DNA from: Cucumis sativus
Lineage: Eukaryota > Streptophyta > Magnoliopsida > Cucurbitales > Cucurbitaceae
Direction: 5' to 3'
Assembly: GCF_000004075.3 (NCBI RefSeq)
Contig: NC_026655.2
Span: forward strand, 18,585,489-18,649,488
DNA: 64,000 bases
Below, in pieces: positions 9,081 through 60,890 of this stretch. The notes under the pieces are model-generated. The model saw only the letters and a program-made list of their open reading frames with translations. It did not search any database and was not told the origin of the DNA. Both the position numbers and the translations under genes were made by a program. Every line of letters starts with the position of its first letter. The first letter of the stretch is position 1.

Positions 9081-9178
9081 TTGGAAATGAATGGAAGACT
9101 GGAAGTGTAAGATAATTTTTGTAGTCTCTTCTTGATTCCTTTCTTTTTGTTGATGTTTAGAGGTTTAATGAATTTGAA

Positions 9179-23629: not shown

Positions 23630-26600
23630 TTAAGAAATACTGGCTGCGAGCAAAGCTCTAAGTTGTCTCCTCAAGATTTTGCCAGAAGGACTTTTAGGAA
23701 TGGAATCCACGAAGAAGACACGATTAATCCTCTTATAAAACACAACCTGCATCCCACATCCTCAATAATTACAATCCATGCATGTATTAAATCTCTCAGA
23801 TTTCAATTAAGATTGAACTATACAGTTTGGTTTTATTAAGGCTTTCGAACTTTCTATATTCTGCCTAAACAGTTAAAATCAATGACAAAATTAAAAGTTC
23901 AATCAGTTATTAGAACTATATTAAATTTTATTGATCAAGACACAACTTTTCAAGTTAGGCATAGGAATAATAAAAGATTAAGAAATTATAGACAATAAGA
24001 AAACGAATTAAAAAAAAAAAAAAAAAAAAAAAGAGGCAGGGGCCTGCGACGAGTTACATCATAAAAGGAAGGCTACCTAATTTTACCATGAAACCGATGC
24101 TAAAATCTCCATCAATAGGTAAAATTACAGGTCTTACCTGTTTGGAGATGAATTGCTTAATTTCATCCTCAGTGATGTTGGAGCCGTCAAACCGGACAAT
24201 GAACGCAACCGGAACCTCCCCAGCAACTTCATCATTCATACTGAAATGTCACCAAATTAGTATTAACAAAAAAGCAGCAGTTAATTCGAAAAGAGAAGGG
24301 TAACATACGGTATAACAGCAGCGTCGGCGATATGGGCGTGGGATATAAGCAGGGCTTCCAACTCCGCCGGGGCTACCTGGAAGCCTTTATATTTGATCAG
24401 TTCCTTGAGACGATCGACAATGAAGAGCTCGTCGTCGTCATCGACGAAACCTATGTCGCCGGTGTGCAGCCATCCGTCTTCGTCGATTATAGCCTTCGTG
24501 GCATCTTCGTCGTTGAGGTATCCTGTTCACTTCAACCAACCGAACTTACGATTTTTATTGGGCTTGGTTTGTCTTGGGAATGAATAAGCCCATTAGGCAC
24601 AATCTGGGCTTGACCCAAATCGATACTTTCATATGGAAACAAATGAAATGACGTCTTCTGGCTAGACGGTATTAATTAGTCAAAGTAAGGGTTGCATTAT
24701 GGAATGACTAAGCGGCATTCATTAGTGACATCAACTGTCAACTTCATCATTAAATGTGTTTAGTTAATTAAACCTTTTCATTTGTGGTGAAGGATACTCG
24801 TTAGTAACGGATTTAAACCTCAATTAAGACGATGCATGAATGGATGAGGTAAATGATAGCCATACTAAAATTTTCATTCATGAATTTAATCTAATATCTA
24901 ATGGTGATGAACAAATACTCTTTTTAATCAAAAATTTTAAAATGCACGCCTCTAACTTATACCAACAAAAGAAAATGTTTAAATTAAATAATTAATGATA
25001 ATAATAATTTAAATCTTGCAAACCACTTTGGAACCATATGAAATTAAATAAGTTTGTTATGCATTTCAAACTTTATTTACATCTCTTTATAAAAAGACAA
25101 TGAGCATTTGCTACACCTTTGCAACCTTGCTCTTCATTTGTCATGTATATGACAAAAATATAATAATATAACCTTTTTTAAATCATTCTACGATCGTTTT
25201 TAATTAAATAATTGATGGGCCATATACAAAGATAGGTCTAATATAAAATACGCTTAAATTTGTTTCTTGGTAACTGAGAGTACACTATATACAAGAAAAA
25301 TTCATATTATGAAGGTGTGTTTGCAAATCTTTTTATCTATCTACTTGTTCAAACACAACCATTAAAGTAGCATCCATTGAAATTTTAATTTCAGAAACAG
25401 AATTTTGACAGAATTGAATTAAACAAAAATGAAAAAGTAAAATTTTTAAATATATCATTAAGAAGTAACATAAAGTTGTTGGGTAAAAGTTTGGATGATT
25501 AAAGGGTTAAATTATTGACAGATTAGACATCAAGATGATCACTTTCATTAATTATTGAAATGTTGATGTCAGTATGGGTATGGAGATGATCAATTCTACA
25601 TGTAAATTGATGTTTAATACTAACATAATGGGTTGATTGCAAGTATTAATAAATTATAGAAGACTAATAAGAGGTCATTGGTTAGCAATATTATTGTAAG
25701 ATTAACCTAGAAGCTAAGGGTGGAATTATTTATCTCACTTAACATAAGGTCAAAAATATAAAAAATAAAAAGTAATCTTCTATACGATTCGTACTAATGA
25801 TAAAATAATAATCTATGTAGCCGAAGTTAGTATCTTTCTTGGACATAAATGCCAATCATATCACATGAAATTAGAAAATAAACAAATAAACAAAGCATTA
25901 TGTACCTTTCATCATTTGAGAACTTCTAATACAAATCTCCCCAGTTTGATTCCTGGGAAGAGACTCTCCCGTTTGCAGGTTTAGTATCTTCATTTCGGAA
26001 TTTCTCATTATTGTTCCGCAACCTCCCGATTTTATCCCGAACCCCTCCTTTACAAAGGCTAACGACATCGTCATCACTGACCCCGCCTCAGTCATTCCAT
26101 ATCCCTACACTCGTTCTTCAAGCGTTAACTAACAATCTTATTTTAAACTAAGAGTAAGTAAAAGTTTAAAATTACCTGGCCAAGAATGACATGGGGAAGC
26201 TTGGCTCTAAAGGCATCTTCAAGATTCTTCCCCAATGGTGCAGCTCCCGACAACACGATACGCAAAGACGACATGTCAAAATGGTCAACAGCTGGACTTT
26301 TGGCAATTGCAAGTACAATAGGAGGCACAAACGGTGCAAAGGTGACTTTGTATTTAGAAACCAATTCTACAAGGGAATTAACGTCGAACTTTTGAACGAG
26401 TAAAATCGCAGCTCCCACTCGTAACGCACACATCATAATTGAGTTCAGAGAATATATGTGAAATAAAGGAAGAAGGCACAAAACAACATCGTCGCTTCGG
26501 ATATGGAGGTGTGGATTTTCACCATCCACCTGTTGTGCCACGCTGGTCACTAATCCTTTATGAGTCAGCATAACTCCTTTTGGAAGACCGGTGGTTCCAG

Positions 26601-27183
26601 ACGAATATGGCAACGCAACGACGTCCTCTGGACTGATTTTCACATCTCCCATTTCCAACTCCTCCTCTTTTGCTACGTCCTCAATCAACGACGAAAATTG
26701 CGGAGGATCATTGTCGTCGATGAATATTACTTTAATGATCATCTCATTTTCCTGAGATAGGTTTTTCACTTTTTCTGCAAACGCAGCTTGGGTTATGATC
26801 ACCTTGGCGCCAGATGACACAGCTTGTTTTGCGATTTCCGACTGCATGAAAAATGGGTTGGCCATGGTGGCAGCGGCGCCGAGGTAGGACGCTCCTAGGA
26901 AAGCTAAAACGAACTCTGGAGTGTTTTGCAGGAGTAGCATGATGACGTCACCTTTTCCGATACCTAACTTGTGGAGACCTGCGGCGACTCGGCGGGATGT
27001 TGCTTGAACTTCGCCGTAGGTGTAGATGTGGCCGGTGGCGGCGTTGATTAGACATGGACGGTGTTTGAATTCGGAGATATTTTCGAAACAATATGTGTGC
27101 AATGGGAGATGGGTGGAGATGGGAATTTCAGGGAGTTTTGAACGGAATATGAATTCCGGTGAGGAAGCGTCGGCGGCAGCCAT
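23630..27183 (-). CDS. 4CL: 4-coumarate:CoA ligase
   Basis: Cytosolic adenylate-forming enzyme that activates 4-coumarate and related cinnamates to CoA thioesters at the entry to lignin and flavonoid synthesis. Five exons on the - strand (26176-27183, 25906-26104, 24309-24522, 24138-24240, 23630-23746) have GT-AG introns and consistent phases, and code 546 residues, the normal size. AMP-binding box [12 protein letters not shown] lies at residues 194-204. [11 protein letters not shown] and GYGMTEA follow, then GWLHTGD, and the end carries VPVAFIVR and SPSGKILR with the catalytic Lys. The 4CL signature box II reads GEICIRS instead of GEICIRG (Ser at residue 397). The sequence around it otherwise reads like a class I (lignin-type) 4CL. 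An A-run interrupts the last intron (24010-24032). Confidence 0.96.
24010..24032. repeat. Poly(A) run in the last 4CL intron
   Basis: Uninterrupted run of 23 A on the + strand, which is a T run in the transcript. Confidence 0.9.
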
Positions 27184-27246
27184 TGGTGGATTTAGTTTTG
27201 GTGAGTGAAGTGAGATGAAAGGTGACGAAAGAAGATAGCAACTACT

Positions 27247-27254
27247 TATTTATA
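27247..27254 (-). promoter_or_regulatory. TATA box of the 4CL gene
   Basis: TATAAATA on the - strand, about 64 bases upstream of the 4CL start codon. Confidence 0.7.
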
Positions 27255-29630
27255 GAATTCGTGAAGTATAGAGTTATTATATATAAAAATAAACAAAACA
27301 AGTATGCATTGGAATTAACACAAATTACACCATTTCTCATTTCCACCCTTGTTTTCATCTACTAATTTATGTTTTAACATTTTCTATTTTATTTATCACA
27401 TGAAAATAGTTTGGTGCAATCCAACCTACACTCTTATGTATTTCTTAAATAGGAAAAAGAAAATGTTGACCATATATTAACTTTTATGATTAGGTAATTA
27501 AGTGAATTATTGAATATATACAACTCAAAAACTCCAAAATGCATTCAAATACTATCTTCATCCATTTATTTGCTCATCACTTGCGAAACAGTTTTAATAG
27601 ATAGCCCTAAAACTGCTACATGTTGTAAAATTAATAAAAAATAAATTAGTCAAAATTTTAAGTTTTCTCTTTGTAAAAAACCCATCTTTTTTTTCTATTG
27701 GTATGCCGTGGAAATATCTTTTAGAATAAGGAAAGAACTACTTTGTAGATTTGGGATGATATTAAAAACTTACTTGCTTTTCGCAAACTATAGCACTAGT
27801 TCTATAGCTACAAATCTCCATGCTTTCCTAAAATTTCACTTATTTTTCATTTGGGTTTATCTCTAGTACTTTGTAATATTTCTTGTGTTTTGTTTCATTA
27901 GCGAAACGAGAATCATGAGAATGCAATGATCTTTATCATCAGTGAAGCGGAAATGATGAAAGTGCAATGAGGGTTTCTACCTGGTAGAAATATTCATATG
28001 TATTTACTGTTCCAAACGCATCTTTTTTAAAAATAATAATAATTTGAGGGTGGGTTCAAAAAATATGAAAATAGTCACTCTCCTCTTTTTTATTGTTGAC
28101 ATACCAAAAAAGAAGAGAGAATTGATTATATTTAGATGAAATAATTGTTAATTATTTAATTTATAACGAAAATGAATTAAATATCTTGATTAGGGAAAAA
28201 AGGATGCTCAGTTTCATTTAAAGATGGATTGGATTGTTGTTTACGTTTCCTTTTAAAAAAAAAAGATGTATTGTTGTTGATTACTGTTTCATTTCTTGTG
28301 TTGTAAAGGAAACAATGAGTGTTTGTTTGTTTTCATCTCTGTTGTATATATACATGAAAATTTATACACAAAAAGTTTATACTAAATTAATTAATGCAAA
28401 AATAGATAAACGTAACAAATGGCACACAGTACATGAAAACAAGGATATATGATGTATAATTAGTTCATATTTTGTCTTTAGTTGAAAGGTTTAATGAATA
28501 TAGTTTCAATTTGACTAGTATTTATATTTATAAACGACTATACATCAATTCTTTTGTCTTTAGATGAGGCTTTCCATGGACCTTTTGTATTTTTATGCCC
28601 CATTTTCAATTCCTCCATAATATTTGCAAACAGATTTTTAGTTGATTTTAGTTTTTTGTTTCTGATCCTCTAGCCTTTAGTATATTATTCGTGAAAAAGA
28701 AATTTTGATTTGGATAAAAATAAGTTTATAAACGTCGCAACAAACTACTTTTACTATCTATGACTTGTTATATACATTTTCTTAAGGTTGTTTATTTGTC
28801 TAATCCAAACATTTCCTTGATTAACAGAGTAAGAAAACCTTTATGATTCACTGGACCAAGCTTCAAAGTCTTATCCTGCAGAATCCAACGTCAGAATGTG
28901 AAATCCCTCTATTCTGATCTTTGCTCCATAAACCAACACAGTAAGAAAACCTTTATTGCATCTGTGTTATGATCTATATGGGTTGGAGAGAAATAGTCAT
29001 ATCTTCACGGAAAAAGGAAAGTCGAACATTGAACTTTGGGAAGTATCTGTGCACTACCTTCAGAACTTTGGACTAACAAATCCACTATGTTTGCAAATAA
29101 TTATAGTGTCTCTTCTATAGCTATCAATTTAAATGTATTTTAATTTCTTTTGTATCGAGTTTATCTCTAGCCTTTTAGCTTATTTTTATCTATTGTACTA
29201 ATTTTTTCTATATTAGTGAAACGATGATGAGAGTCCTAAATTGGTATCTATCTAGTAGGAATGTCTGTGTATATTATCCTTTTTATAAGAAAACTGAGTA
29301 AGAAAACATGCAAAATTTTCAAAAGGTAAAAAGCACCAAATATAAAGGTTATGTAAATGTTTTTTAAATAACTTGGGTGTGAACTTTTTAGGGTAAATTT
29401 CTCAAAAGAAAAGAAAAAAAGACAAAGATTATAATTAACATCCGGAAGTTTAGGTAATTTTTTAAATTAATTTTCTGAAATGATTGGATTTTATTTTACT
29501 TTATTTTAAAATTTTGGAAGAAAAATTAATTACATCAAAGAAACAGCTGTCAGTTAGTTTTAACTTGAATGATTATTTGATAACAGAAAAGGAAAATCGA
29601 AATTGAATAAGGAGAGTGAGTTTATTTTGG
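27255..29630. other. Intergenic spacer
   Basis: AT-rich. The word AGTAAGAAAACCTTTAT recurs near 28828 and 28940. Two diverged blocks near 27.85-28.0 kb and 29.16-29.28 kb share phrases such as GTTTATCTCTAG and GGTAGAAAT/AGTAGGAAT, so they may be an old duplication of an unknown repeat. No gene was recognised. Confidence 0.45.
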
Positions 29631-29813
29631 AAAATTTTCTTTGTTGGATGTGACTAAGGAAAAGTGAAACAAAAATAAATTAGGTTTTGAGTTAGCGTCT
29701 TCTACAGTCACCATTCTCTCCGTAAAAATCCCTCAACTACAACGCCGTCTATCTTCTTGAGTTCTAATATTTTAATCCCCCCCTTGAATTTAGGGTTTCA
29801 AATTGCTAAAATA

Positions 29814-31592
29814 ATGGAAGCTTTTGATAATCCCATTATCCCATTAGAGGCCGAAGAAGATGATCAATTTCCAATTGGTTTAAAAGTGCTTGCAATTGAT
29901 GACGATATTGTTTGCCTTCGTTATCTTGTTCAACTCCTTGAAAAGTGTCAATATAAAGGTACTTCCGTCAATAGTTTTTCCTATATTTTTCTTTGGGAAT
30001 AATAAAAAAAAACCCTAATTACCATTTTTTTTTATATAACATATAGTAAGTGCAACAACAAGAGCTGAGGAAGCAATAAGGTTAATAAACGATGAGAAAC
30101 AGATATTTGATATTGTTATTACCAATGTTGTACGACACGACATGGATGGCTTCGAAATCCTTCAAATCATTGGCGTTGGAATGGATATTCCAGTTATTAG
30201 TAAGTATTTCTCGAAATAATAGTAATTATTTTTCTTAAAGAATGCCAAATTCTCAAACCCTAAAGTTATTACTTATATTGAATTGTATATATTTCAGTGG
30301 TATCAGCTAATGAAGATTTGAAGATGATGAAGAGGGGACTTATGGAAGGAGCTGAGCTCTATTTACCAAAACCTGTCGGATTACAAGAATTGAAAAATAT
30401 TTGGCAACTCGTTTTGCGTAAAAGATTATCTCGTAAAAGATCAAACCCTAATCTTTTGCTATTGGAACAACCTGCAGTAGAAGAACATCGTCATTCCCTT
30501 GAAAGGGTTACAATGGATCAAGAATATTATGTGGGTGACCATATTGTTAATAAATTAGACGATGATAATGATAATTATAATAATAATATTGTTGATTCAT
30601 CTTCTTGTTCAAAGAAGAAGCCACGAATAAGTTGGACAAAGGAGTTGCATGCAAAATTCATTGAAGCTTATGAGATATTAGGAGAAAAGGGTTAGCACTT
30701 TTTTTTTACGATGGTCAAATTGTTAATTCATCTTTAGTCTTTTGTGTGTGAATATATGTTAAGTTCTTTTTTTCTGTTTGTTTTACAGAGAGAGTCCCAA
30801 ATAACATTTTGAAGCACATGAACGATCCTAGATTGACACGAGAGAATGTGGCGAGTCATCTTCAGGTTTGTCCTAGAAATTAAACATTTCTTCTATAAAG
30901 CTCATATTTGTCTTATTTTTTTGTTTTTAGTTTTTGGAGAAACCATTATTATCCAATCTCAAATTTACAAAATTGATGGTTATGTATTCAATTAAATTGC
31001 AGAAACACAGAGATACATTGAGAAAGAAGAAAGAAAGCGGAGTTGGAAAACTAGGAATTCAAAAAAAATTATATGATAAAAATCAAACAAAAACCTCCAC
31101 ATTATACAATTCGATGAACCATATGAACAAGGTTTCAAATTTGGGGTCTCAATTTCTAATAAGCAATGGCCAAGGGAATCAGACGTGGACGGCGGCCAGA
31201 AGTTGCTATCCGGTGCCGGAATTCAAACCCTTTAATTTTCCACCCAATAATTCAACTTCAAGAACATGTGATGATGATAATCCGTATTACTCGGGAGGAT
31301 TTGATGAACCAATCAACAATAGTTCTTATTATCCTAATTCCTTGGAAACTAATTGCGGTTTCAATTCAACTTCTCAAATTCTCGTTGGACAATATGCGAT
31401 TGAAAACCATACTGATGGTGGTGCAGGTACATATATATGTTTCCTCTGTCATTATTTAATCAATCGGTAGTCTATTAAATCAAATTAAAAGTGTTATGTT
31501 TTTCAGGACAATGTTATCAAATGCAATTTAATGCTGGAAATTCCTTGGAAAGCTTATTAATGGATGGCGAGCTTTCTGACATTTTCAAATAA
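29814..31592 (+). CDS. Type-B-like pseudo-response regulator (pseudo-receiver plus GARP), copy 1
   Basis: Predicted nuclear transcription factor with a two-component receiver-like domain and a GARP (Myb-like) DNA-binding domain. Exons 29814-29958, 30047-30199, 30298-30690, 30789-30865, 31003-31426 and 31507-31592 join in phase to 425 codons. Receiver-like domain, about residues 22-140: VLAIDDD is kept at the acidic pocket, the switch Ser lies at 102 and the Lys at 124. The phospho-acceptor is Asn75 (VITNVVRHDMDG), where active members have Asp. An acidic and Asn-rich linker leads to the GARP domain at about 207-265 (SWTKELHAKF, LTRENVASHLQKHRDTL). The C-terminus ends LMDGELSDIFK. An upstream in-frame ATG at 29757 exists. 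The Met before EAFDN is preferred because the paralogue at 37975 starts there. It therefore should not take part in classical phosphorelay. Confidence 0.9.
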
Positions 31593-33228
31593 AGAGTAAA
31601 CTTTCTAACTTTAGGAATATTTTTATCTTTTTGAAAAAAGAAAAAGAAAAGTTTGATATTGAAATTATACTGATGATAATCCATGTGTTTGCAGCTTCAA
31701 AGCGTGAAGGTGTTTTTTGAGATTTGATGTTACAGAAATATGCTTCCACTTTGGAGAATTTGATTTTTGAAGACCAAGTAATGAAGTTTAATGTGTCATT
31801 ATTTTGAACTCGATTAGACGAGAATTAGACTATATAGATAGATAGATTGGAAGTTTGATTAAGTTGTACAAAAGAAAAAGAAATGATCTACTATGAGTAT
31901 ATAAAAATATTTTTGTTTATGTAAGATTCTCATTAATTCTTGATCTCCTATAATACATAACAACCAAGGCAAGTATCTTTGTCTTTATTGCTGATATTTT
32001 GCACTGTAGAGACCATATATATGATTTAATGTTCATTATCAAATAAATAAATTCATATATACAAAAACTTGATTGGTTTCAAAACCATAATATGAGGCAA
32101 TAACTATTATAGTATATTTCTTAATGAAGTCATCATTACATTAACTGAAGTGATACCATCAAACCAATTAAATGCAAAAACAGAATTGTTAAGTTAATTA
32201 GCGGTGTAATTGTTAGAACAGTTTGAATAATTATGAGAGAGAATTTTTCCGATATCAGGACGATAAATATTTCCTCATTAATTAACAAAATTTTATAAAA
32301 GAATTATAAAAAAATCAGGTTAACAAAATTCGTAATCTGTTCGACTTCATACTATGTCGAGTAGAGTATTACTAAATATATGTATCTATATTTGTTTCAC
32401 CAAACTAATTTTCTAATTGTGTGGATAGGCAAGTGCATCAAAGTAAAGACTATATAAACATATTCATATTATTTAAAATGAAAATCTACAGTTGTATTTT
32501 TAGTAATCGTTTAAATTGAAAATTAGTTGAAGAAAAATTAAAATTGTTTATATCGATACAATGAAAAGACTTTTCGTCTGTCATATATTTTGATCGTTCT
32601 CACAGTTTGTCATATGTTTTATCTTAGACAAACTATGTATGATATAGTTTTGTATCGCTTCCAAATAATCTGAAATATAATATAGTAAATTAAAACAAAT
32701 AATCTTCTTATACAATATTATACTGTTAATTTATATGGTGCAGAACTCTTAATATTAAAACATTCAATCATATGTTGTATCATTTCACTCTTCACGTTAG
32801 AAAAATCAAATAACCAAACCAGTCTTTTAATTTAAAAAATTAATACCAGTCAAATCAAATATCATAAAAGTTTAAAAAAAATCCCAATATTGTACATTAA
32901 TCCTCTTGAGTATAAAAAACTAATAAAAATTATTATTTTTTCTTTTAGTTTCACATTAGTTTCAATATATATATATATATATAATGTTAATAAAAAAAAT
33001 ACTTATCTTTTATTTTGTTTTAGTTTCACACTGGTTTCAAATATATATATATATATATATAAATTAAAATTTATAACAATTTATCTGATGTTAATTTTTT
33101 AATCTTGAAATTAAATATTGCTACAAATAATATTTTTACTCATGTTTTTCTTTATTATTTTATTTAAACTTATGTATCTAAGGATTATTTTCTTTATTTT
33201 TTAATTTAAAATTTTAACAAAATATTTG
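31593..33228. other. 3' region of copy 1 and AT-rich spacer
   Basis: The first 250 bases are homologous to the 3' region of the second copy (shared TTGATGTTACAGAAAT and GAATTTGATTTTTGAAGACC). Beyond that it is AT-rich spacer with a duplicated (TA)n block at 32941-33061. No gene was seen. Confidence 0.5.
32941..33061. repeat. Duplicated block with two (TA)n tracts
   Basis: The phrase TTTTAGTTTCACA, then GTTTCAA and a (TA)n tract, occurs twice about 76 bases apart. The tracts end at 32983 and 33061. Confidence 0.75.
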
Positions 33229-34147
33229 TCATAAAATAAAATAAATTAAAAGTAAAAAATAATAACAAACAACCTTAAAATAACAAACAAAATGAAATAA
33301 ATTAAGAAAAATACTCATAGGACAGAATGTTGAACACTCGTGATTGTGCCATAGAATATTTCTTTGAGATGTACATAGAGAAACTTTTTTGACATCTAAT
33401 TGTCTTATGGGCCAATTTTTACTATTTTCTAGAGATAAGATTAACCTTATAGTGGTAGGTTTGATCACACGACTATAAGTTTTTTCGTAACCAATTCCTT
33501 CTAATTAAGAATACTCTTGAGCTATTAGGTGACTTATTGCGATCAAAGTACCATCTTCCTTGTTTTTTTATTTTAAACACCCACTTTGGTCCTATTACGT
33601 TCGAATCATAAGGTCTAGGAACAGGGGTTCATGTATGATTTCCCAAAAGAGCTGACATTTCATCATCCATTGCATTTCTCCAATGAGGTTGAGATTGGGC
33701 CAAAGCTATTTAGTAGTTATTCTTTGGTTCAGTGTGAGAGAGTGTAGCTAGATACGATTGGTTATGTTCTCTAGTTTTCAAGTTGTTGATTTCGTAAGCT
33801 AATTTGGGATAAGAGATGGGTTGTTAGCCAGTTTTCTTCTTGTGATCATTTGATGTGTGTGAGGATCACAATAGGTTCGTTGCATTGGTTACTAGCTTCA
33901 TTTGACGCTGTAGCTGTAGGTGAAAAATTTAAGTCAATAGGAGAGCATTATGCTTATATAAGGACGAGAATTAACATTAATATGCGTATTGCAGAGAGAT
34001 GTGTTATAGGGATATGAGCAACCAAATCTGCTTATTTGATGCACTAAAGTGTTCTTGATCATCTGCTGCTATATTTGATCCATTTGATGATCTTGGTTTC
34101 TTGTAATTGTGGTTGAGACTTCCCTATATGTTGTTAGTTAACTCAAT

Positions 34148-34229
34148 ATTTCCTTGATCATTGTCTAAGGATGTCTTCAAATGACCTTATTTCCTTGATC
34201 ATTGTCTAAGGATGTCTTCAAATGACCTT
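34148..34229. repeat. Perfect 41-bp tandem duplication
   Basis: Two identical adjacent 41-base copies, each beginning ATTTCCTTGATCATTG, inside the Copia fossil. The identity implies a recent event in an otherwise decayed element. Confidence 0.95.
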
Positions 34230-34811
34230 GTTGGTTTGCTACAGCTGCTGTAATCACACTTGGAGTATGTCTCTGCCATATATTGAACTTATGGCCATAG
34301 CAGTGTGACTGACTTATTTTATTTTATTTTCATCTTCATCCGTTGTGCCTGAAAAAATATTGAGAACAAGAGAAGACATACTCTTCATAGAGTTGTTATA
34401 CATGCTTTTATTAAAAGAAATTTTTTCTTCGTCAAACACACCTGTCTTGAAATATAAACTCGATTGGTTGAGGGGTCAAGACATCTATATCCCTTACGTT
34501 CCATACTAAATCCTACAAAGATACATGAGTATGTTCGTTTAGAAAATTCGTTGTTGTTCGGTTGATTTCGAGGGTTTAGGGTTTAAGGAAAACAACGATA
34601 ACAAAAAATTCTTGTTTCAGTATGGTTAAGAGTTATTTTATAAAGAATTTTCGAAAGAGAAGAGCATTCTATTTATGAGAAATACAACAATTAAAAATGC
34701 GTCTACGTATCCAACACTCTAGGCTTCAGGTTGCTTTGGATTTATTTTGAACTGTATACTGTTTGTGCAGTATATGGACATGCCTGTATTGAGTTTTTAT
34801 TGAATCCACAG

Positions 34812-35104
34812 GAAGCAGAAGCGAAAGCTGCTGCTGCTGAAGAAAGAGAGCGATCTATAAATGAACGCTTGTCCCAAACCTTATCTAGAATTAATGTTCT
34901 GGAGGCGCAGGTTCTTATTGCTAATGATTTTCATCTTTCTCCTTTTTTTTTCAAATATTATCTAATAGCAGAACTCTTTTGCAGGTTTCATGCCTTAGAG
35001 CAGAGCAGACTCAATTAAGCAAAACCCTTGAGAAGGAGAGGCAGAGAGCAGCTGAAATCAGGCAGGAGTATCTGGCAGCAAAAGAGGAAGCTAAGCAATT
35101 TAAA
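34812..35104 (+). pseudogene. Two-exon fragment of a TMF-type golgin gene (Golgin candidate 5-like)
   Basis: Two exon-like blocks, 34812-34910 (33 codons) and 34985-35104 (40 codons), are each preceded by CAG acceptors and joined by a short GT-AG intron in phase. They encode coiled coil: EAEAKAAAAEERERS, NERLSQTLSRINVLEAQ, then VSCLRAEQTQLSKTLEKE and RQRAAE..QEYLAAKEEA. This matches my memory of the plant golgin candidate 5 (TMF family), a Golgi coiled-coil tether of roughly 900 residues. No other exon is found nearby, so only about 73 residues remain. Intron sequence is retained, so the piece came from genomic DNA, not a processed transcript. It lies on the strand opposite to the surrounding Copia fossil. 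Confidence 0.75.
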
Positions 35105-36208
35105 GTATGAATTTCATTAGAAGTAAATGGAAGTTCGCAACTTTTTCCAACTTTTTCCAATTGGTCACATTGATGAGCTGTTTGTTGGACAATATTTCTA
35201 GAAAATTGTCATTCAAATGCCCAATTCTTTTGTGCTAAATCGAACAAGGAAACTTATTAGTGAAAGCAACGAAAGTAGATGAATGTTTAGGTAAATTTGA
35301 AGGAAAATAATTATTGGAATCAGTAGAATGGTAGGTAAATGGTGTTGGACATTTTTCTGGTGTGAACTGAAGATCTCCCAAACTATACAACCTTTCTTTC
35401 CTTGTCCTTCAGCTAGAATATTCCCCTGTGGATTCTATATATAACAAATTTGTCAGCAAAAAGTGTGATTGAGCAATTATTATCTCTTGTTAACTTGTGT
35501 ATAGAAAGCAAATTCTTTTTCATCTCACAAACTACTAGCACATTATTAAGATCAAGGTCACCTGTTCTAGTCCTAAATGTGTGTGATATTGAGTCCTTTT
35601 CCATTTCCAACGTACATTTTATCACAACTAAAGTAGTGACGTATAAATTTAAATTTACCTAGATCATTAGCAACATGTGAGGTTGCTCCGGAATCAACAT
35701 AAATATCTGTATCATCTACTTCATTCAAGGTGATAGCAGCAAGAGCCTCAGGAATTTCTTCTGATTGATTATATGAAAGATAAGGAGGTTTCGATAGCAT
35801 GATTGTTCTGAACTCCCTACTCTGTGTTTGCTTCCTATCTCTCTTGCTATGTGGAAAACTTAAAATCAATATATCATCCAAAGGCTTTTTCACAGCTGCA
35901 AGCATGTCACATAAACTCTTGGAACTTTCTAAGATAATCATCTAGAGCTAATGATCCTTTCTTTAGAGTGAAAAGAGCTTCGTTTGATATGTATTCCATT
36001 CTCCTCTGTCATTGTTAATAAAAGATCTTCAAGAGAGACAATCTTGGCTTCTTTTGTCTCAATTTTGCAACCTCTAATCACAGGCTGTGACACATCCAAC
36101 GTTTCTCTAATTCTCATATATAAAAGGTCCTGTCCATTAACTTTTGCTAACACAATCAGTTTCCCTTTTACCTTGTTTAGGAGCTTGATAGAGAATTCGA
36201 TAAAACTA

Positions 36209-36626
36209 GCACATTTTTTGTTTTACATTTCAAAAATAGTATAGTTTTTAAAAACTTATAATTTTATTTTTATTTGATCAATTTCGGCCGAGATCGACCT
36301 CAAGATTTATTCTCAAATTTAAAAAGCTCTTTGAAGGATTTATCTCGATTTCTTTCGGTCGAGTGCATCACTAAAAATTGAACTTCCTCCATCACTCCAC
36401 CAACTAATTGTTTATCGAGGGTTAGTCATTTTTAGATCAATTAATTTAAATTAAAGTTCAATCTGGGTGATGCACTCAACGAGAGACCAAAATAAATCCT
36501 TCAAAGAGTTTTTTAAATTCGGAAAGAATCTTGAGGTTGATCTCGGTCAAGATTAACCCCGATAAAAATAAATTTATAAATTTTCTAAAAATATATTTAT
36601 TTTGAAATATAAAATAAAAAATGTAC
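36209..36626. mobile_element. Foldback MITE with long terminal inverted repeats
   Basis: A 418-bp element made almost wholly of two imperfect inverted arms (about 36209-36384 and 36455-36626) around a loop of some 70 bases. The outer ends read GCACATTTTTT and, on the other strand, GTACATTTTTT. Matching inner words include TTTGAAGGATTTAT / ATAAATCCTTCAAA and GTGCATCA / TGATGCAC. TA dinucleotides flank both ends (36207-36208 and 36627-36628), compatible with a Tc1/mariner-type target duplication, though a TA in AT-rich DNA is weak evidence. No coding capacity. Confidence 0.8.
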
Positions 36627-36628
36627 TA

Positions 36629-37500
36629 ATATTGCGGGATATTATTATTATTAATGGAATCCTAAGTCTTAATATACCTGTTTCATATTGTCATGCTCTA
36701 TCATTATTATATATGTATTGTTGATTCATTATTCTTTGTTTCTGTTTTCAGCCCCAAGGTGGAGTATATATACATTGGTATTACACAATAATATGAGGAA
36801 AAATCTACCTCTTTTTATATGTGCTATTTTCGTATGAAGCTTTGTGTTTATAGGATATTTTTCATTGATATATATCTTGTTGTGCTGAAGCAAGGCTAGG
36901 CAGAGGTGTCTTGGATGTGAGCTAGATTGTAAGTAATATATCGTCAATGTTGAAGAAGTGAACTTTTGTCAAAGATATTAATGGTAGATTAATTTACATA
37001 TACTTATACGTTTGATTGTTTATTTGGTTTGATGAATGTTTATCATGAACAATTTATAGGAAAATATTCAAATATAAAAAAGAAAAAAAACTACAAATTA
37101 TACCATCTTCACATGTTAAATGTATCAAGAACTTTTGCCCTTGACATTTTATTTCTTGTAAAGAATATCTACCTTCTTGACATTTTTTTCGTATTAAGTA
37201 AAATTTATCTTTACGTTTTTACTTATCAAATTAAATTGTTCTCGACATTTTTTATCTGTTTCAATGTTCGATATTATTAAATTATGTATTCTTGGCACCG
37301 ACTTTTTTTTATCGTTTTTTAAACATTCATGATTTTGAGAAAGCGTCTAGTTTTTTTTTTAGTAGTGTGACGATGAACGTTGATAGGTTGATAAACAAAT
37401 TATATTAATTTGTTTAGTTTGGAAAATATCTTTTTGTTGGAAATTATTAAAGGATAAAGTGAAAAGAAAAGATTAGGTTTAAGTTAAATTTTTAGATAGA
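36629..37500. other. Intergenic spacer before pseudo-regulator copy 2
   Basis: AT-rich, with no gene seen. The last ~100 bases begin to align with the upstream region of copy 1 (shared TTGTTGGA and GATTAGGTTT-like words). Confidence 0.5.
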
Positions 37501-37635
37501 ACTCCTCAGCCGCGCGTCCTCCACAGTCTCCTTTCCCTCGGTAACTCCCTCAACCACAACGCCGTCTATACAATCACCACGCACCGCCGTCTTACGGCCT
37601 AATTCAGCCGCCACCGATGTTCTTGTAGTTTGCCT

Positions 37636-37913
37636 GTAAGTAGGTTTGAAATTTTATGGATGTTTAATTCTTGAATGATGAATATAATCCTGATAGATAT
37701 TTATGTTTACCCATAAAATTAGGGTATTAGATTTCAATTTTAGAGTATACTTAGGGTTGAAACAAAAATAAAAACCCTTAGGTCTAATCAAATATATAAT
37801 TAAAATTCATGAATCTGAAATCGAAGAAAACCTTAAATACCTAATCTGTAAAATAAACAAAAATATCAAAAGAACTACAGTATAGTTAATATTTATTTAT
37901 TTTCCTTTTTCAG
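37636..37913 (+). other. Likely 5' leader intron of pseudo-regulator copy 2
   Basis: A donor (CCT|GTAAGTAGG) and an acceptor (CCTTTTTCAG) bracket 278 bases upstream of the ATG. Leader words ACAACGCCGTCTAT before it and CTTCTTGAGTTCT after it are directly contiguous in the leader of copy 1 at 29740-29765. Splicing is inferred. Confidence 0.55.
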
Positions 37914-37974
37914 TACTCCACCTTCTTGAGTTCTTATATTTTAATTTCTCCGTTGAATTTAGGGTTTAAATATA

Positions 37975-39724
37975 ATGGAAGATTTTGATAATCACATTCC
38001 ATTAAAGGCCGAAGAAGATGACCAATTTCCTATTGGTTTAAAAGTGCTTGCAATTGATAACAACATTGTGTGCCTTCGTTATCTTGCTCAACTCCTTAAA
38101 AAATGTCAATATAAAGGTACCTCCAGCTTTAATTTCCCTATTATCTTTGAATTTTCCATACAATTTGAAGAACCCTAATCACCTTTTCTAATTTTCACTA
38201 TATATATATAGTAACTGCATCAACGGAAGCAGCGGAAGCAATAAGACTACTAAAGGATGGAAAACGAACATTTGATATTGTTATTACCAATGTTGTCAGA
38301 CAATACATGGATGGCTTCAAGATACTTCAAATTATTGGTGTCGAGATGGATATTCCGGTTGTTAGTGAGTATTTCTCAAAATTAATTTAACTCCTTACAT
38401 TGTTGCTCTCGATCATCTCTATCTCTGTGTATATTTAACTGTTGATTCTCATAACATTGAATTATTTCAGTGGTATCCGCTAATGAAGAATTGGACACGA
38501 TGATGAGGGGAGTTGTAGAGGGAGCTAAGGATTACTTAATAAAGCCTGTCAGGCTACAAGAATTGAGAAATATTTGGCAACACGTCTTGCGCAAAAGATT
38601 AGCTCGTAAAAGCCCAAACCGGCCTAATCTTCTTCTATTGGAAGAACAACTTGTGTTAGAAGAAGAAGAAAATCATAACATCAGTACTGCTAAAAGGGTT
38701 GCAATTAATTATCAACAAGATTATGAACAAAGTAAAGAGATTGTTAAATTAAATGATGGTAATAATGTCGCTGATGATTCTTCTTCTAAGAAGAAGAAAC
38801 GAGTAAGTTGGACAAAGGAGTTGGATGAAAAATTTATTGAAGCTTATGAACAGTTGGGAGAAAAAGGTTATCATTTTTTTTTTTTTTTGCCTTAAAAGTT
38901 TGTAAATATATGTTAAGTTTTTCTCTTCCTTTTTTTGATTGATTTGTGTTTTCTCTTTCTAGAGAGAGTGCCAAATAACATATTGAAGCTCATGAACGAT
39001 TCTAGGTTGACACGAGAGAACGTGGCAAGTCATCTTCAGGTTTGCCCTAATTTCCTACTTTTTTGACCAACCATTGTTATTCAATTTCGAATTGCAAAAC
39101 TAATGGTTATGTAATTAAATTTCAGAAACACAGAGATACATTGAAGAAGAAGAAAGCAAGTGGAGTTGGAAAATTAGGAAGCCACGGAAATTTATACGAT
39201 AGAACAAATCCAACAAAAGGATCCACACTTTACAACTCGATGAATCAAATTAACAAAGTTCCAAATTTGGGGCCTCAATTTCGAATAATAAGTAATGGGC
39301 AAGGAAATCAAAACGATAAAGCGACGTGGACGGCGGCCGGAAGTTGCTTTCCGTTGCCAGAATCCAAAGGGTTTAATTTTCCATCCAATAATTGGATTTC
39401 AAAACCATGTGATGATGATAATCATCAATACTTGGGAGAAGAATTTAATCATGCTTATTATCCTCCCTTGCAAACTAATTGCAATTTCAATTCAACCTCT
39501 CAAAATTTTGTTGGATATTATGCAATTGAAGATCATAATTATGATGGTTCAGGTACATACATATATATGTGTGTTCTTAATTCTAGTATTTTATATGATA
39601 TTTTAAATCTAATTAAATGTGTAAATAACGTTTTTCAGGACAATGTTATCAAATGCAATTTACTGCTGCAAATTCCTTGGAGAGTTCATTAATGGATGAC
39701 GAGCTCAGTGACATTTTCAAATAA
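37975..39724 (+). CDS. Type-B-like pseudo-response regulator (pseudo-receiver plus GARP), copy 2
   Basis: Paralogue of the gene at 29814, with the same six-exon structure and identical intron phases: 37975-38116, 38212-38364, 38471-38866, 38963-39039, 39126-39552 and 39639-39724, giving 426 codons. The receiver-like domain has Asn74 instead of the phospho-acceptor Asp (VITNVVRQYMDG). The acidic pocket is reduced to IDNN, so it is further from a working receiver than copy 1. The Lys is kept (YLIKPVRLQELRNIWQHV). The GARP domain lies at about residues 207-265 (VSWTKELDEKF, LTRENVASHLQKHRDTL), and the conserved C-terminus ends LSDIFK. Both promoter and 3' region resemble copy 1, so the duplication covered the whole gene. 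The best reading is a DNA-binding regulator uncoupled from phosphorelay. Confidence 0.9.
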
Positions 39725-42640
39725 GGTAACTAACAAATTTGTTATCTTTAGGAATATTAATTATCTATTGGAAAAAAAAAAGTTTGATAGACATTTTATT
39801 GATATATGATATATGCAATGTGGAAGTTTCAAACTGGAGGAGGCATTTTAGCTTGATGTTACAGAAATTTGCTTCCACTTTGAAGAATTTGATTTTTGAA
39901 GACCAAACAAAATAGAGTTCAATGTGATATATATATATATATATAAATTATGCTAATTGTATAAAAGTATTTTTGTTTACACAGGTTACATGTAATTTTA
40001 TTATTTTATTTTCCGTTAATTCTTATTCATTTTTCAAAATGAAATTTTAAATTAGTTTGTTATAAAATGAAACCTATTTAGGTCTATTCTAACAAATAGT
40101 TATTATGATATTTTACTATATTTAAAAATATTTCGAATCCAAAAAAAGCAACTGAACAAACAGTTTTGATCAAATATAAATAATTGCATGGATGATGAAC
40201 ACACAGCAACTTTGCGTTACGGTTGCGATGACTGTCTTGTATCTTTGTACAAGCAATGGAAAGGAATTTGCTGGATATGATGAGCTCTCGTGAAAGTTGG
40301 GTGTAGACTGTTGGTGAGTGCAGAATTATTTTATGTGAAAACAAGGGGCTAACATGCACTGCACACATTGATTGCAAAACTTAATTATTATAGCTTAATT
40401 TGTGATGTCAAGTGATGACGATGCCTCATTTGTTCTGTGTTTGGATTCTAATAAAAGTAAGACTTTATCCACGATGGGCTCAGTCGCATATTTGCACTCA
40501 CATCACGGCGGCCTATTGACTTGGCCTCGTTTTCTTAAAAAAAATAATTCACAACTCTAATTAATTAATATTTTAGAATAAAATATAATGTATTTTTCTA
40601 AGAATAATATAAAAGACAACTGTCACCTTGTCCTTTAACCGAAAAGACGACGCTTCCTTTTGTCATTGTTAGGTAAAAAAATGGTTTGCCTTTTTCCTTT
40701 ACAAATACAATATTCCCATATTTTAATTTTTAATGTTGTTTTTTTAGATTATTCCTATTTTTCTTTTAAATGATGTTTTTAAAGGTAGAATACTTTTACA
40801 ATATTTTAACAATTTATTTTACACTCTTTACTTTTCTGCTTCAGGATTATTTGGCTGTTGTTTAATTTCACATAGTTTTTTAAATACTTAAAATATTGTC
40901 AATTTAATTACATGCTCCTGCCCATATAATAAGGTTAAATTATAAATTAAGGTTTAGAGTTTAGAAAAAGTTAAAATTTAGCTTATATATATAATTTAAA
41001 AGATTTAGAATTTAGTTCGTTTTCATTTAATAAAATTTTGTAAATAGTTTTTGTTGTTGGATAAAACTTGTTGGAATTATTTTGCATGAGTTTTATTAAA
41101 TTAGAATAACTATATTTTAAATACAAATTATTTAATAATTAACAATAATTTGAATTACATGTACAGTTATTTAAAAATAATTATAAATATATTTTAAATT
41201 TATATATATAGGTACATAAGTTGACGTTGAAGTCGCGTACTCAATCCATAACTTCGATCACATCTCTATAGTTGACTTATCAGTAAAGTAGCGTTAATTA
41301 TCAACTGTCCATCATTGATCGAGTATAGCTTTCTTAAAAATTTTAAAAATTTTCCATAATTCTCATGACGTTAATATAGTTTTATGAATTTCAAAATTAT
41401 TATTGTTCAATTGATTTTTCAATATGAAATTAATTAACCAATTAGAGAAGAAAAAAACTTGATGACATAATTAGATACGCATTGCATATTTATTTAAATT
41501 TGTGGCGTATTAAACTCAAATACAACTTAATATAGCCTTAATAATAATAATAACAACTTACAAAATCTGTTGTATAATCCCCTTTGGAGTAAAAAAAACA
41601 AATAAATAGAGCATTGGATCAGAGAAAGGAAAGGTGGCAGATATCTAATAATTAAGCATAGATTGCAATAAAACCTACCAATTTGTCGTCTTCATAAACT
41701 CTATAATTTGGTAGGTTCCACCTCAGTTTCACTAAATACCATAATATATAATTCAGATGATCGATCATACATTTCTATAAGAAACTCTGCTTATAAATTA
41801 TTTCTTTACAATTAATTAAAAAGGTGCAGTATAAACAAATTAAAGTGCACAAAATCCATTTTTATTTCTCTTATCAAATTCCCGTCTGCAAATTTAGTTA
41901 ATTAATTAAGTGTTTGATCATGTAAAGTAAATTTGAAATGTGAAGGGTTTTGTAATAAATTTGTTTTCACCCTCAGTACTCTACAAGTTAACCATGCAAA
42001 CTTGATTTACATATATTTAACATCTTTAATTGTCAGTGATCACTTAATACACACTGTTGAAACAATAAAAAGCTCTAATACTATCAAAAATCGAGAAATC
42101 CGTATAATAAAAGCAATGAATACACATAACAAACAAATATAATATTAAGTAATATTATTACATGATTCTTAATCCTAATAAAAACAATGAATGGATAATC
42201 AAAATTGAGTTTTCTTTTTCTTGTGAAATTCACCTTACTTATTAACACAACCCGATTCAATGAACATAAAATAATATTACAAAAAAGAAAAAAATCATCT
42301 TCTTGCTTAAACAATAATTAAATCTCACACATTAGGAAGGTGTTATGAAACTCCACTCAATTATAATCTCAAACAATAAAAATAATATAATGTTTAGTTT
42401 AAAAAATAACTAAAAAGTAATTAGCTCATACCCCACATAATCAAGGAAGCAATATAAGTGATTAATCAAATTAAATAAAGACTGCATCAAACTTTTGACC
42501 TTACTCTTGTCATATCAACACGGTCTTCCAATTCCACACGCATTACTTCCTCCTTGTTTCTCAAGCTCCTACAGAAATTTCCAACCAATACCCATAACAT
42601 TATTGTTAATTATATTATGCTTATTGCCGGCTATTAGCAT
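39725..42640. other. 3' region of copy 2 and AT-rich spacer
   Basis: About 200 bases of 3' sequence shared with copy 1, a (TA)n tract near 39930-39945, then AT-rich spacer. Short open frames show no domain. No gene or intact element was recognised. Confidence 0.5.
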
Positions 42641-46704: not shown

Positions 46705-47712
46705 CTATGCGTCGTCAATATGGTATAGTTTCGATTGCTTCAAATTCGCAGTGACATTGAAATACTTCAAAGTACGAATCCATTTCTCCTGATTCTTCAA
46801 CAGATGAACGGCGATTGTCTCCGGCCAAAGCTCGTGAGTACATCCCGTCCACGGCTCCGGATAATTGTACATCGACCACTTCGCATTGAACCGATTCTTC
46901 GCACGCCGCCCCTCTCTAATCCAGTCCCCAAATACTTTGTCCTCTGGCCCTTCCAAATGCTTCTTCGGAATCTCCGATTCTCTGATCCACTCCGCCAAAT
47001 CCCATGATATCAAATATCCCATTCCCGACATGTAATGAACGAATGGATCCATACTCGGACAAGGAATTACATATCCGTAGTACAGATCTTCTCTCGGAAG
47101 TGGCCGGAGCGATTCCACCAAGCTGTTTAGTCTAATGTAAGTATCGTCGTCGGCTTTCATCACATAGTGATACGGCGGATAAGAACCCCCGCCGTCGCTG
47201 TTGTTGAAGATCTCCGGTAGACTGGAGAAGTAGGTGTAGGTTTTGCCTTTGTTCATATTCTCTTTGCAATTAAGGATAATAATGTCGTCGTACCGCATAA
47301 TTTCCAAGGCGACGAGAATTCTCTGATCCTCTTTTGTTAAATTGCAGAAGACGAATTTCACGTCGATTTTAGCGCCGGAAAAGGATTGCGTGCCGTAAAT
47401 TAAGCGGAGGAAGTGACGGCGATTGTACTGATCGGGAAGAGTGAGAATGCCGATGAGAATACGAATATCGGTGTGGTTGGAAACAGAGGAAGAATTTACA
47501 AGAGAGGAGTTAAAGGAAGTAGTGGCGGCGACGCCGGAGCATTGGCCAAATTTCAAAAGAGTGTCGAAACGAACTTCGTTAATGGAGGCTAAAACGCAGA
47601 GGAAAAGAATGAAGAAGAATGAAAGAAGAACAAAACGACGTCGGTTGGACTTGTTGGGGGATCTGGTAACGTCCATTTGAAAGAAATGTAAAGAGGGAAA
47701 TGAATTAAGCAT
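46705..47712 (-). CDS. GT31-family galactosyltransferase-like protein
   Basis: Predicted Golgi type II membrane glycosyltransferase, single exon, 335 residues from the first ATG. An equally good start is the Met at residue 13 (ATG at 47676), just before DVTRSPNKSNRRRF. A short basic N-terminus precedes one membrane anchor (about residues 27-43, VLLSFFFILFLCVLA). The catalytic domain carries RILIGILTLPDQYNRRHFLR, the metal-binding DDD in MKADDDTYIRL (188-190) and the GPEDKVFGDW segment (256-263), all typical of beta-1,3-galactosyltransferase-type GT31 enzymes. There is no galectin domain, unlike the hydroxyproline galactosyltransferases. The acceptor substrate cannot be predicted. A possible TATA box lies about 60 bases upstream. 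Confidence 0.88.
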   Translation of the reverse strand: MLNSFPSLHFFQMDVTRSPNKSNRRRFVLLSFFFILFLCVLASINEVRFDTLLKFGQCSGVAATTSFNSSLVNSSSVSNHTDIRILIGILTLPDQYNRRHFLRLIYGTQSFSGAKIDVKFVFCNLTKEDQRILVALEIMRYDDIIILNCKENMNKGKTYTYFSSLPEIFNNSDGGGSYPPYHYVMKADDDTYIRLNSLVESLRPLPREDLYYGYVIPCPSMDPFVHYMSGMGYLISWDLAEWIRESEIPKKHLEGPEDKVFGDWIREGRRAKNRFNAKWSMYNYPEPWTGCTHELWPETIAVHLLKNQEKWIRTLKYFNVTANLKQSKLYHIDDA

Positions 47713-47770
47713 TTTGGGAATTGAAGAATGTAATTATTAAGAAGAAAGAAAGAGGCGTTAGTTAATAAGA

Positions 47771-60816: not shown

Positions 60817-60823
60817 TATAAAT
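60817..60823 (+). promoter_or_regulatory. TATA box of the AAA ATPase gene
   Basis: TATAAAT, 74 bases before the ATG at 60891, in a CT-rich promoter. Confidence 0.7.
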
Positions 60824-60890
60824 TTCTTTACCCTTTTCTTTTCTTACTCAACCACCCTTTCTTCTTTCTTCTTCTTCTTCTCACTCAACT

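Follow-up and report, generated by a model that had tools for sequence, protein, structure and literature searches.

Two neighbouring cucumber genes encode response regulators of the type-B class in which the aspartate that accepts phosphate is replaced by asparagine, which raises the question of whether such proteins are still switched by phosphorelay, have been retained for another task, or are on their way to being lost. The reading favoured here, in which we place about even confidence, is that they arose by an old tandem duplication and are non-canonical (pseudo) type-B GARP factors unplugged from phosphorelay, which may dampen the canonical type-B regulators. Both genes lie in the window, the whole 64,000-nucleotide stretch of DNA that was analysed, and their features are collected in Table 1.

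Table 1. Features of the tandem gene pair, in window coordinates.
Feature	Position	Strand	Basis
Gene 1, non-canonical type-B response regulator, 425 aa, probably CsRR13 or CsRR14	29814..31592	+	splice model and translation; Pfam; spliced alignment
Gene 1, six exons	29814-29958, 30047-30199, 30298-30690, 30789-30865, 31003-31426, 31507-31592	+	splice model
Gene 1, receiver domain, aa 23-143, exons 1-3	29880..30428	+	Pfam PF00072 aa 25-133, E 4.9e-19
Gene 1, Asn75 codon AAT, column of ARR1 Asp89 (phospho-acceptor)	30124..30126	+	alignment, DNA
Gene 1, GARP domain, aa 207-266, exons 3-5, LTRENVASHLQKHRDTL	30618..31032	+	Pfam Myb_DNA-binding; NCBIfam TIGR01557; omega 0.19
Gene 1, last exon, conserved acidic-hydrophobic C-terminal end SLESLLMDGELSDIFK	31507..31592	+	pair alignment
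Gene 2, non-canonical type-B response regulator, 426 aa	37975..39724	+	splice model and translation; Pfam
Gene 2, six exons	37975-38116, 38212-38364, 38471-38866, 38963-39039, 39126-39552, 39639-39724	+	splice model
Gene 2, receiver domain, aa 22-142	38038..38601	+	Pfam PF00072 aa 24-133, E 2.6e-17
Gene 2, Asn74 codon AAT, column of ARR1 Asp89 (phospho-acceptor)	38289..38291	+	alignment, DNA
Gene 2, GARP domain, aa 207-266, exons 3-5	38794..39155	+	Pfam Myb_DNA-binding; NCBIfam TIGR01557
Gene 2, last exon, matching acidic-hydrophobic C-terminal end SLESSLMDDELSDIFK	39639..39724	+	pair alignment
Gene 2, possible 5' untranslated region intron, GTAAGT..TTTCAG, absent from gene 1	37636..37913	+	splice-like ends, inferred
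Duplicated unit, copy 1	29620..31795	+	blastn, two blocks
Duplicated unit, copy 2	37412..39926	+	blastn

All ten introns of the two models have GT..AG ends, their phases are 1, 1, 1, 0, 1 in both genes, and both spliced translations are free of stops, in agreement with the open six-exon frames described in an earlier sequence-only reading of this DNA. Spliced alignment of gene 2 residues 1-275 to the gene 1 region reproduces introns 1-4 of gene 1 exactly. Each protein has its receiver at the N terminus, then a GARP/Myb-like domain, and ends in an extension of about 160 aa (Pfam, NCBIfam), confirming the full type-B layout that had been proposed. The two copies of the duplicated unit are 73% and 68% identical in two blastn blocks; a stretch of copy 2 without a blastn counterpart in copy 1 (37570-37921) contains the putative 5' untranslated region intron of gene 2. 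No Rfam family reached threshold within the 64-kb window.

The pair is almost certainly CsRR13/CsRR14 of He et al. 2016 (PMC4916222; this and the other PMC numbers refer to the parts of the papers that were available), where these are the sole tandem pair named among eight cucumber type-B genes and are filed as type-B with a Ks of 0.4564. The identification rests on the tandem arrangement, on a dS between our two genes of 0.461 (YN00), and on the type-B count, as the six ARR1-like loci found here and the pair also make eight. PRRs are described in that survey as carrying E in place of D, and the available text makes no mention of N or of a missing Asp in CsRR13/CsRR14.

For comparison within the same genome, 14 genomic regions were taken from at least 60 matches listed, with the best candidates scored, and counts of type-B-like loci are therefore of loci modelled, several GARP-only or receiver-only match sites being left out. 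Loci were compared by the portion up to SHLQ only, because spliced alignment had produced spurious last exons for several of them, and the next exon was located by pattern. Three loci were set aside from alignment and tree: L047 (judged a clock-type PRR), L051 (taken as a GARP gene with no receiver match) and L052 (likely a type-A regulator). L049 was left out of the tree as it does not differ from L048 over the 7269 bp that the two share; "APRR2-like" is a label assigned in this analysis to L048/L049 and L050.

In this alignment, for which ARR1 numbering and letters were taken from PDB 8xat, the Asp89 column is Asn in both genes, at the residues (75 and 74) already pointed out from the sequence, and the acceptor Asp of the D-D-K triad that marks an authentic type-B regulator is found in neither. 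Asp occupies the column in ARR1 and in 7 of the 8 other type-B-like loci modelled, and is kept in all six ARR1-like loci; L045 has Ala, and the APRR2-like loci have Glu (3/3). As the Asn is common to both copies, the substitution is most simply older than the duplication. The equivalents of Ser116 and Lys138 are retained by both genes, and the acidic pair of the triad is DD in gene 1 and DN in gene 2, which has Asn at both ARR1 44 and 45. A loop that reads VHMPDMDG or VNMPDMDG in canonical type-B regulators is VVRHDMDG or VVRQYMDG in the pair, and of nine ARR1 residues that contact AHP1, as identified in the ARR1-AHP1 structure paper (PMC11903765), 4 and 3 are retained in the pair versus 5 to 8 in the six ARR1-like paralogues by manual count. 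With active-site-shell positions of our own selection, the active site shows no significant excess of receiver losses in gene 1 (5/16 vs 19/51, Fisher P 0.77) or gene 2 (8/16 vs 13/51, P 0.12), so that a loss of phosphorelay alone is not supported by this test.

The receiver and GARP domain of the pair are under purifying selection. Omega is 0.29 for the receiver (95% bootstrap 0.17-0.50; with Biopython, NG86 0.27, YN00 0.35, ML 0.32), 0.19 for the GARP domain (0.06-0.56), 0.44 for the whole protein and 1.08 for the linker (ML 0.52), all values being pairwise between the two copies, in which the evolution of each copy alone is not separable. The ratio is thus not near 1 across the whole protein, in keeping with the selection proposed in the sequence-only reading, and its proposal that the protein is kept while phosphorelay is given up holds in part: constraint on both domains and loss of the Asp agree with it, and the receiver losses give no sign that phosphorelay alone was given up.

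It is possible, if doubtful, that these are decaying duplicates, a canonical type-B gene having lost its acceptor and then duplicated, with both copies drifting to loss and the measured constraint being old. The whole-protein and linker omegas are in line with this, as is the long stem branch of the pair (1.17 substitutions per site), and in legumes, where non-canonical regulators occur in tandem clusters, the tandem copies are mostly weakly expressed (PMC6518804). CsARR5/CsARR6, two cucumber type-B genes reported to be essentially unexpressed in ten organs, are by position order probably this pair, which may therefore be barely expressed, a circumstance that the sequence-only reading had counted against itself, though such a lack of expression would be seen in genes of narrow expression as much as in declining ones. 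Decay is opposed by the intact state of both frames and all splice sites, and by neutral simulation (substitutions only, 0.187 per site, 2000 runs per gene), in which 1 run for gene 1 and 0 for gene 2 stayed stop-free; as nearly all runs gain stops, the open frames are not due to chance. The upper bounds of omega in the receiver and GARP domain also stand against it, as do private receiver changes relative to 7 outgroups, which come to 8-12 for gene 1 and to a similar 4-8 for gene 2.

In the GARP domain, myb_SHAQKYF is matched in both proteins (NCBIfam). At seven helix positions named in the literature as DNA contacts of ARR2, gene 1 matches ARR1 at 6 and gene 2 at 5, the figure being 5 or 6 in the tabulated five of six ARR1-like paralogues and 5 in ARR10. 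The residue which latches the receiver to the GARP domain (REC-GARP) has changed: Tyr291 of ARR1 is Thr in both genes, and Tyr288, an aromatic residue close by, is His, giving KHRDTL in the pair versus KYRxYL in all six ARR1-like paralogues. The Thr may release the GARP domain and tip the proteins towards constitutive activity, which counts against a silent or competitor role. ARR10, a normal cytokinin-regulated factor, naturally has Ala in place of Tyr291 and Phe in place of Tyr288, and for this reason the Tyr291 change was rejected as proof of constitutive activity. An unlatched, constitutively active pair would accord with the reports that ARR1 and ARR2 are far more active without their receivers and that the REC-GARP interface uses part of the DNA-binding face (PMC11903765); however, D-to-N is described as a mimic of the unphosphorylated state (PMC6963811), and an omega of 0.29 is unexpected for a receiver without a task, so that this reading, too, appears rather improbable. 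Beyond the GARP domain, a search for the C-terminal motif found an end resembling that of the pair, SFESLDDIMNSIIKRV, in a reading frame of paralogue L039, and one match in L045; a second set of patterns gave no match in 7 loci, and no conclusion is built on these searches.

In gene structure and GARP motif, the pair is supported as type-B rather than APRR2-like. Exon 2 measures 153 nt in both genes, as it does in 8/8 type-B-like loci, versus 80 nt in APRR2-like loci; up to the SHLQ helix there are three introns in the pair and in 6/8 type-B-like loci, four in the other two (the extra one before the receiver), and seven in the APRR2-like loci, which are three in number although two of them carry the same sequence. 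LTREN is found in the pair and all eight type-B-like loci versus LTRHN in all three APRR2-like loci, and receiver identity to the pair is 0.45-0.52 for the six ARR1-like loci versus 0.32-0.35 for APRR2-like loci. A tree (208 columns, 13 sequences) groups the pair at 100/100, and an AU test of six topologies keeps all of them, the best and five alternatives, in the confidence set; the exclusion of APRR2 thus rests on acceptor residue, motif and introns instead of the tree. That the pair are APRR2-type pseudo-regulators, members of a known clade that likewise joins a pseudo-receiver to a GARP domain, is highly improbable, since its grouping with the APRR2-like loci is retained (p 0.58, delta logL 0.34) but Asn in place of Glu, LTREN, the 153-nt exon 2, the fewer introns and the receiver identities all separate it from them. 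The type-B-like helix of the earlier reading is upheld on these characters, its separation from APRR2 being one that the tree leaves undecided. By domain layout and gene structure the pair would class as type-B, and more narrowly as a non-canonical RRB as defined in legumes, a type-B protein in which the acceptor D is replaced by E or N.

For such a protein, unplugged from phosphorelay, a mechanism can be proposed. The pair would be unable to accept phosphate from HPt proteins by the normal route, and cytokinin-type phosphorelay would therefore not switch it, its activity presumably being set by transcription and partners. In principle, phosphate could still be added to a D-to-N receiver at another site, as in bacterial CheY, which counts against this proposal. 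The most likely output would be no or weak activation, because D-to-N mimics the unphosphorylated state; in the same review, ARR18 D70N failed to activate a reporter, and ARR18 dimers formed solely between monomers of equal phosphorylation state (PMC6963811). D-to-E, in contrast to ARR18 D70N, activates. By analogy with the inactive ARR18 mutant, silent or competitor proteins would be favoured over constitutive activators, so that of the outputs suggested in the sequence-only reading (constitutive, dominant-negative or otherwise signalled) the constitutive one seems less likely. The pair is predicted to bind DNA at type-B (RGATY-like) sites, or to form dimers with unphosphorylated type-B proteins, and may thereby compete with the canonical type-B regulators or hold down their output, within a narrow tissue or under a narrow condition. 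A bolder version, in which a cucurbit type-B pair lost both trigger (Asp89) and latch (Tyr291) before duplication and has since been retained, over tens of millions of years, as GARP regulators that act independently of phosphorelay, the receiver serving for dimerisation only, is considered unlikely.

Asp-less tandem type-B regulators are already known from legumes, and the cucumber pair is not new in kind. Among 138 proteins from Medicago and other legumes the acceptor D is replaced by E in 25% and by N in 6% (PMC6518804), and these non-canonical RRBs resemble the pair, by description rather than alignment, in type-B layout, replaced acceptor D and tandem arrangement. Canonical type-B regulators (ARR1, L039-L044) share with the pair the domain layout, intron positions, LTRENVASHLQK helix, Ser116 and Lys138, and differ in the acceptor Asp, the VHMPDMDG/VNMPDMDG loop and KYRxYL, as well as in the Asn residues of gene 2. 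PRR6 of Brassica napus also has its central D replaced by asparagine and, unlike the pair, is described as having no Myb-like domain (PMC10743665). A literature search on D-to-N type-B regulators, in general and in cucurbits, returned, among the papers listed, none announcing the substitution for cucurbits, and a search by the names CsRR13 and CsRR14 gave a single paper.

The pair was almost certainly counted among ordinary type-B cytokinin-output genes in the published cucumber survey (PMC4916222), and through this filing, knockout and expression work on cucumber type-B regulators may misassign its role. If receivers have indeed been kept here without phosphorelay, the pair would be a natural test of what plant receivers do beyond accepting phosphate, and also of the REC-GARP latch mechanism, of which the release step is called unresolved in the ARR1-AHP1 structure paper (PMC11903765).

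Both genes have the structure that the sequence-only reading had proposed, namely six-exon open frames with a receiver and a GARP domain: the splice models share the same intron phases (1,1,1,0,1), both match Pfam models for a receiver and for a Myb-like domain, and NCBIfam places the latter in the SHAQKYF class. For residues 1-274 of gene 2, the best matches among solved structures are 8xat (E 4.3e-57) and 9h6e, Arabidopsis ARR1 with receiver and GARP, together with 8xas (ARR1) and 1irz (ARR10), which match the GARP part. The claimed exchange of the phospho-acceptor was also borne out: when the pair was aligned with ARR1 and with 11 further loci from this genome, the column of ARR1 Asp89 held Asn in both genes. 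The residue is Asp in ARR1, in its six closest loci (L039-L044, whose receivers are 0.65-0.84 identical to that of ARR1) and in the divergent L046, Ala in the divergent type-B-like gene L045 (C6:5411500-5418500, minus strand), and Glu in three APRR2-like loci; loss of the acceptor is therefore not unique to the pair even within this genome.

The equivalents of Ser116 and Lys138 are retained in both genes and the acidic residues in gene 1, while in gene 2 the positions of ARR1 44 and 45 are both Asn. After the acceptor, ARR1 and its six similar loci carry the loop VHMPDMDG or VNMPDMDG, which is VVRHDMDG in gene 1 but VVRQYMDG in gene 2. Among columns constant across these seven sequences, gene 1 and gene 2 keep 43 and 46 of 67 in the receiver and 25 and 26 of 34 in the GARP domain, and the receiver losses, tested in both genes, showed no significant clustering around the active site. 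ARR1 residues contacting its HPt partner AHP1 in the ARR1 complex are named in the available text of PMC11903765; by alignment, gene 1 retains 4/9 and gene 2 3/9, the six ARR1-like paralogues 5 to 8, L046 5 and L045 4. Helix positions that contact DNA in ARR2, according to the accessible portion of PMC10454580, are conserved in the pair to about the same degree as in five tabulated paralogues, except that Ile269 is replaced by Asp.

In ARR1 the receiver packs against the GARP domain through a contact that takes up some of the DNA-binding face, and phosphorylation is presumed to release this packing (PMC11903765, as excerpted). According to the excerpts of PMC6963811, a D-to-N change imitates the unphosphorylated state, ARR18 carrying D70N gives no activation, and dimerization of ARR18 requires both monomers to be in the same state. 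The mimicry and the inactive D70N thus predict that a natural Asn would give an off or competitor protein rather than a constitutive activator, so that a silent or competing role is favored and, of the earlier proposal (constitutive, dominant-negative or otherwise signalled), the constitutive one disfavored. It is unlikely that the pair are instead unlatched activators, although one observation speaks for this reading: Tyr291, which reaches into a receiver pocket of ARR1 (PMC11903765, same excerpts), is kept in all six ARR1-like paralogues and is Thr in both genes. ARR10 has Ala at this position, which warns against placing weight on the latch change.

The 412 codons aligned between gene 1 and gene 2 give dN 0.163, dS 0.374 and omega 0.44 (bootstrap 0.30-0.61), a pairwise value that averages both lineages. 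By region, omega is 0.29 in the receiver (0.17-0.50), 1.08 in the linker (0.58-2.44), 0.19 in the GARP domain (0.06-0.56) and 0.55 in the C-terminal part (0.32-0.93). With other estimators, omega comes to 0.34-0.41 over the full alignment, 0.27-0.35 in the receiver and 0.09-0.28 in GARP, and the linker value is 1.07 (NG86) or 0.52 (ML). Aligned intron stretches are 67% identical. Under simulated neutral substitution to the pair's divergence, the frame stayed open in 1 of 2000 runs for gene 1 and 0 of 2000 for gene 2. Private receiver changes number 8-12 in gene 1 and 4-8 in gene 2, varying with the outgroup, and neither copy is thus clearly distinguishable as the free one. Decay of the pair is a reading to which we give little credence. 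One survey, in its accessible text, lists eight type-B genes, CsARR4-11, with essentially no expression of CsARR5 and CsARR6 across ten organs (PMC12027353); these would be the pair if CsARR numbers run by chromosome position.

The pair almost certainly corresponds to CsRR13/CsRR14, the one tandem pair among eight cucumber type-B genes in the available text of He et al. (PMC4916222), against which six ARR1-like loci plus the pair are counted here. That text classes CsRR13/CsRR14 as type-B, its pseudo-regulators having E at the D site, and places the duplication 35 million years back, ahead of the divergence of cucumber and watermelon; watermelon has a syntenic gene for CsRR13 and a tandem pair of its own, ClRR16/ClRR17 (Ks 0.3716). 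The published Ks of 0.4564 compares with dS of 0.461 (YN00) and 0.374 and 0.394 (NG86) here.

Membership of the pair in the APRR2 group is very improbable: APRR2-like loci have Glu at the acceptor, LTRHN, an 80-nt exon 2 and seven introns up to the GARP helix, whereas the pair has Asn, LTREN, a 153-nt exon 2 (as in 8/8 type-B-like loci) and three introns, and its receivers share an identity of 0.45-0.52 with the six ARR1-like loci versus 0.32-0.35 with APRR2-like ones. These characters support the type-B-like assignment made from sequence, but the tree leaves it undecided, as the stem of the pair is 1.17 substitutions per site and all six topologies compared were retained, including one grouping the pair with APRR2-like loci. 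Two of these loci, L048 (C1:11516000-11523500) and L049 (C3:40338000-40345500), share 7269 bp, an APRR2-like gene included, at 100% identity on two chromosomes, through either very recent duplication or an error in the assembly.

Features of the window and its surroundings
Feature	Position	Remark
Window	C1:18585489-18649488	genome of 226,625,048 bases, 88 contigs
Gene 1	29814-31592	six coding exons, GT..AG introns, stop-free
Gene 2	37975-39724	six coding exons, GT..AG introns, stop-free
Duplicated unit, copy 1	about 29620-31795	
Duplicated unit, copy 2	about 37412-39926	
Xyloglucan endotransglycosylase	3284-3904	Pfam; ordinary plant neighbour
Nicotianamine synthase	8226-9164	Pfam; ordinary plant neighbour
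AMP-binding enzyme	26146-27249	Pfam; ordinary plant neighbour
Galactosyltransferase	46708-47733	Pfam; ordinary plant neighbour
AAA ATPase	60822-62480	Pfam; ordinary plant neighbour

The leaders of the two copies differ, as 352 bp in the leader region of gene 2 (37570-37921) has no counterpart in gene 1; 37636-37913 is a possible 5'-UTR intron. Between the genes, a 377-bp stretch (34716-35092) resembles a two-exon piece, with its intron, of a coiled-coil gene, presumably golgin-like, and matches C2 near 14.94 Mb (locus L054) at 100% identity, being either a very recent gene-fragment insertion or an assembly matter. It is flanked by what we read as Copia-like remnants with broken frames (about 33300-36300, minus strand), with one weak Pol_BBD match under the curated cut-off (35579-35941). 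Also between the two genes, a perfect 41-bp tandem duplication lies at 34147-34228.

In the literature searched on the pair and on D-to-N type-B regulators, as far as the available texts extend, no statement on the missing Asp and latch Tyr of the published cucumber pair was met. Among 138 legume type-B proteins, the excerpts of PMC6518804 report D replaced by E in 25% and by N in 6%, with D-replaced proteins expanded by tandem duplication and most tandem copies weakly expressed; by this precedent the pair belongs to a kind already described. There is about an even chance that the two cucumber genes are phosphorelay-uncoupled regulators, mostly silent or competing.
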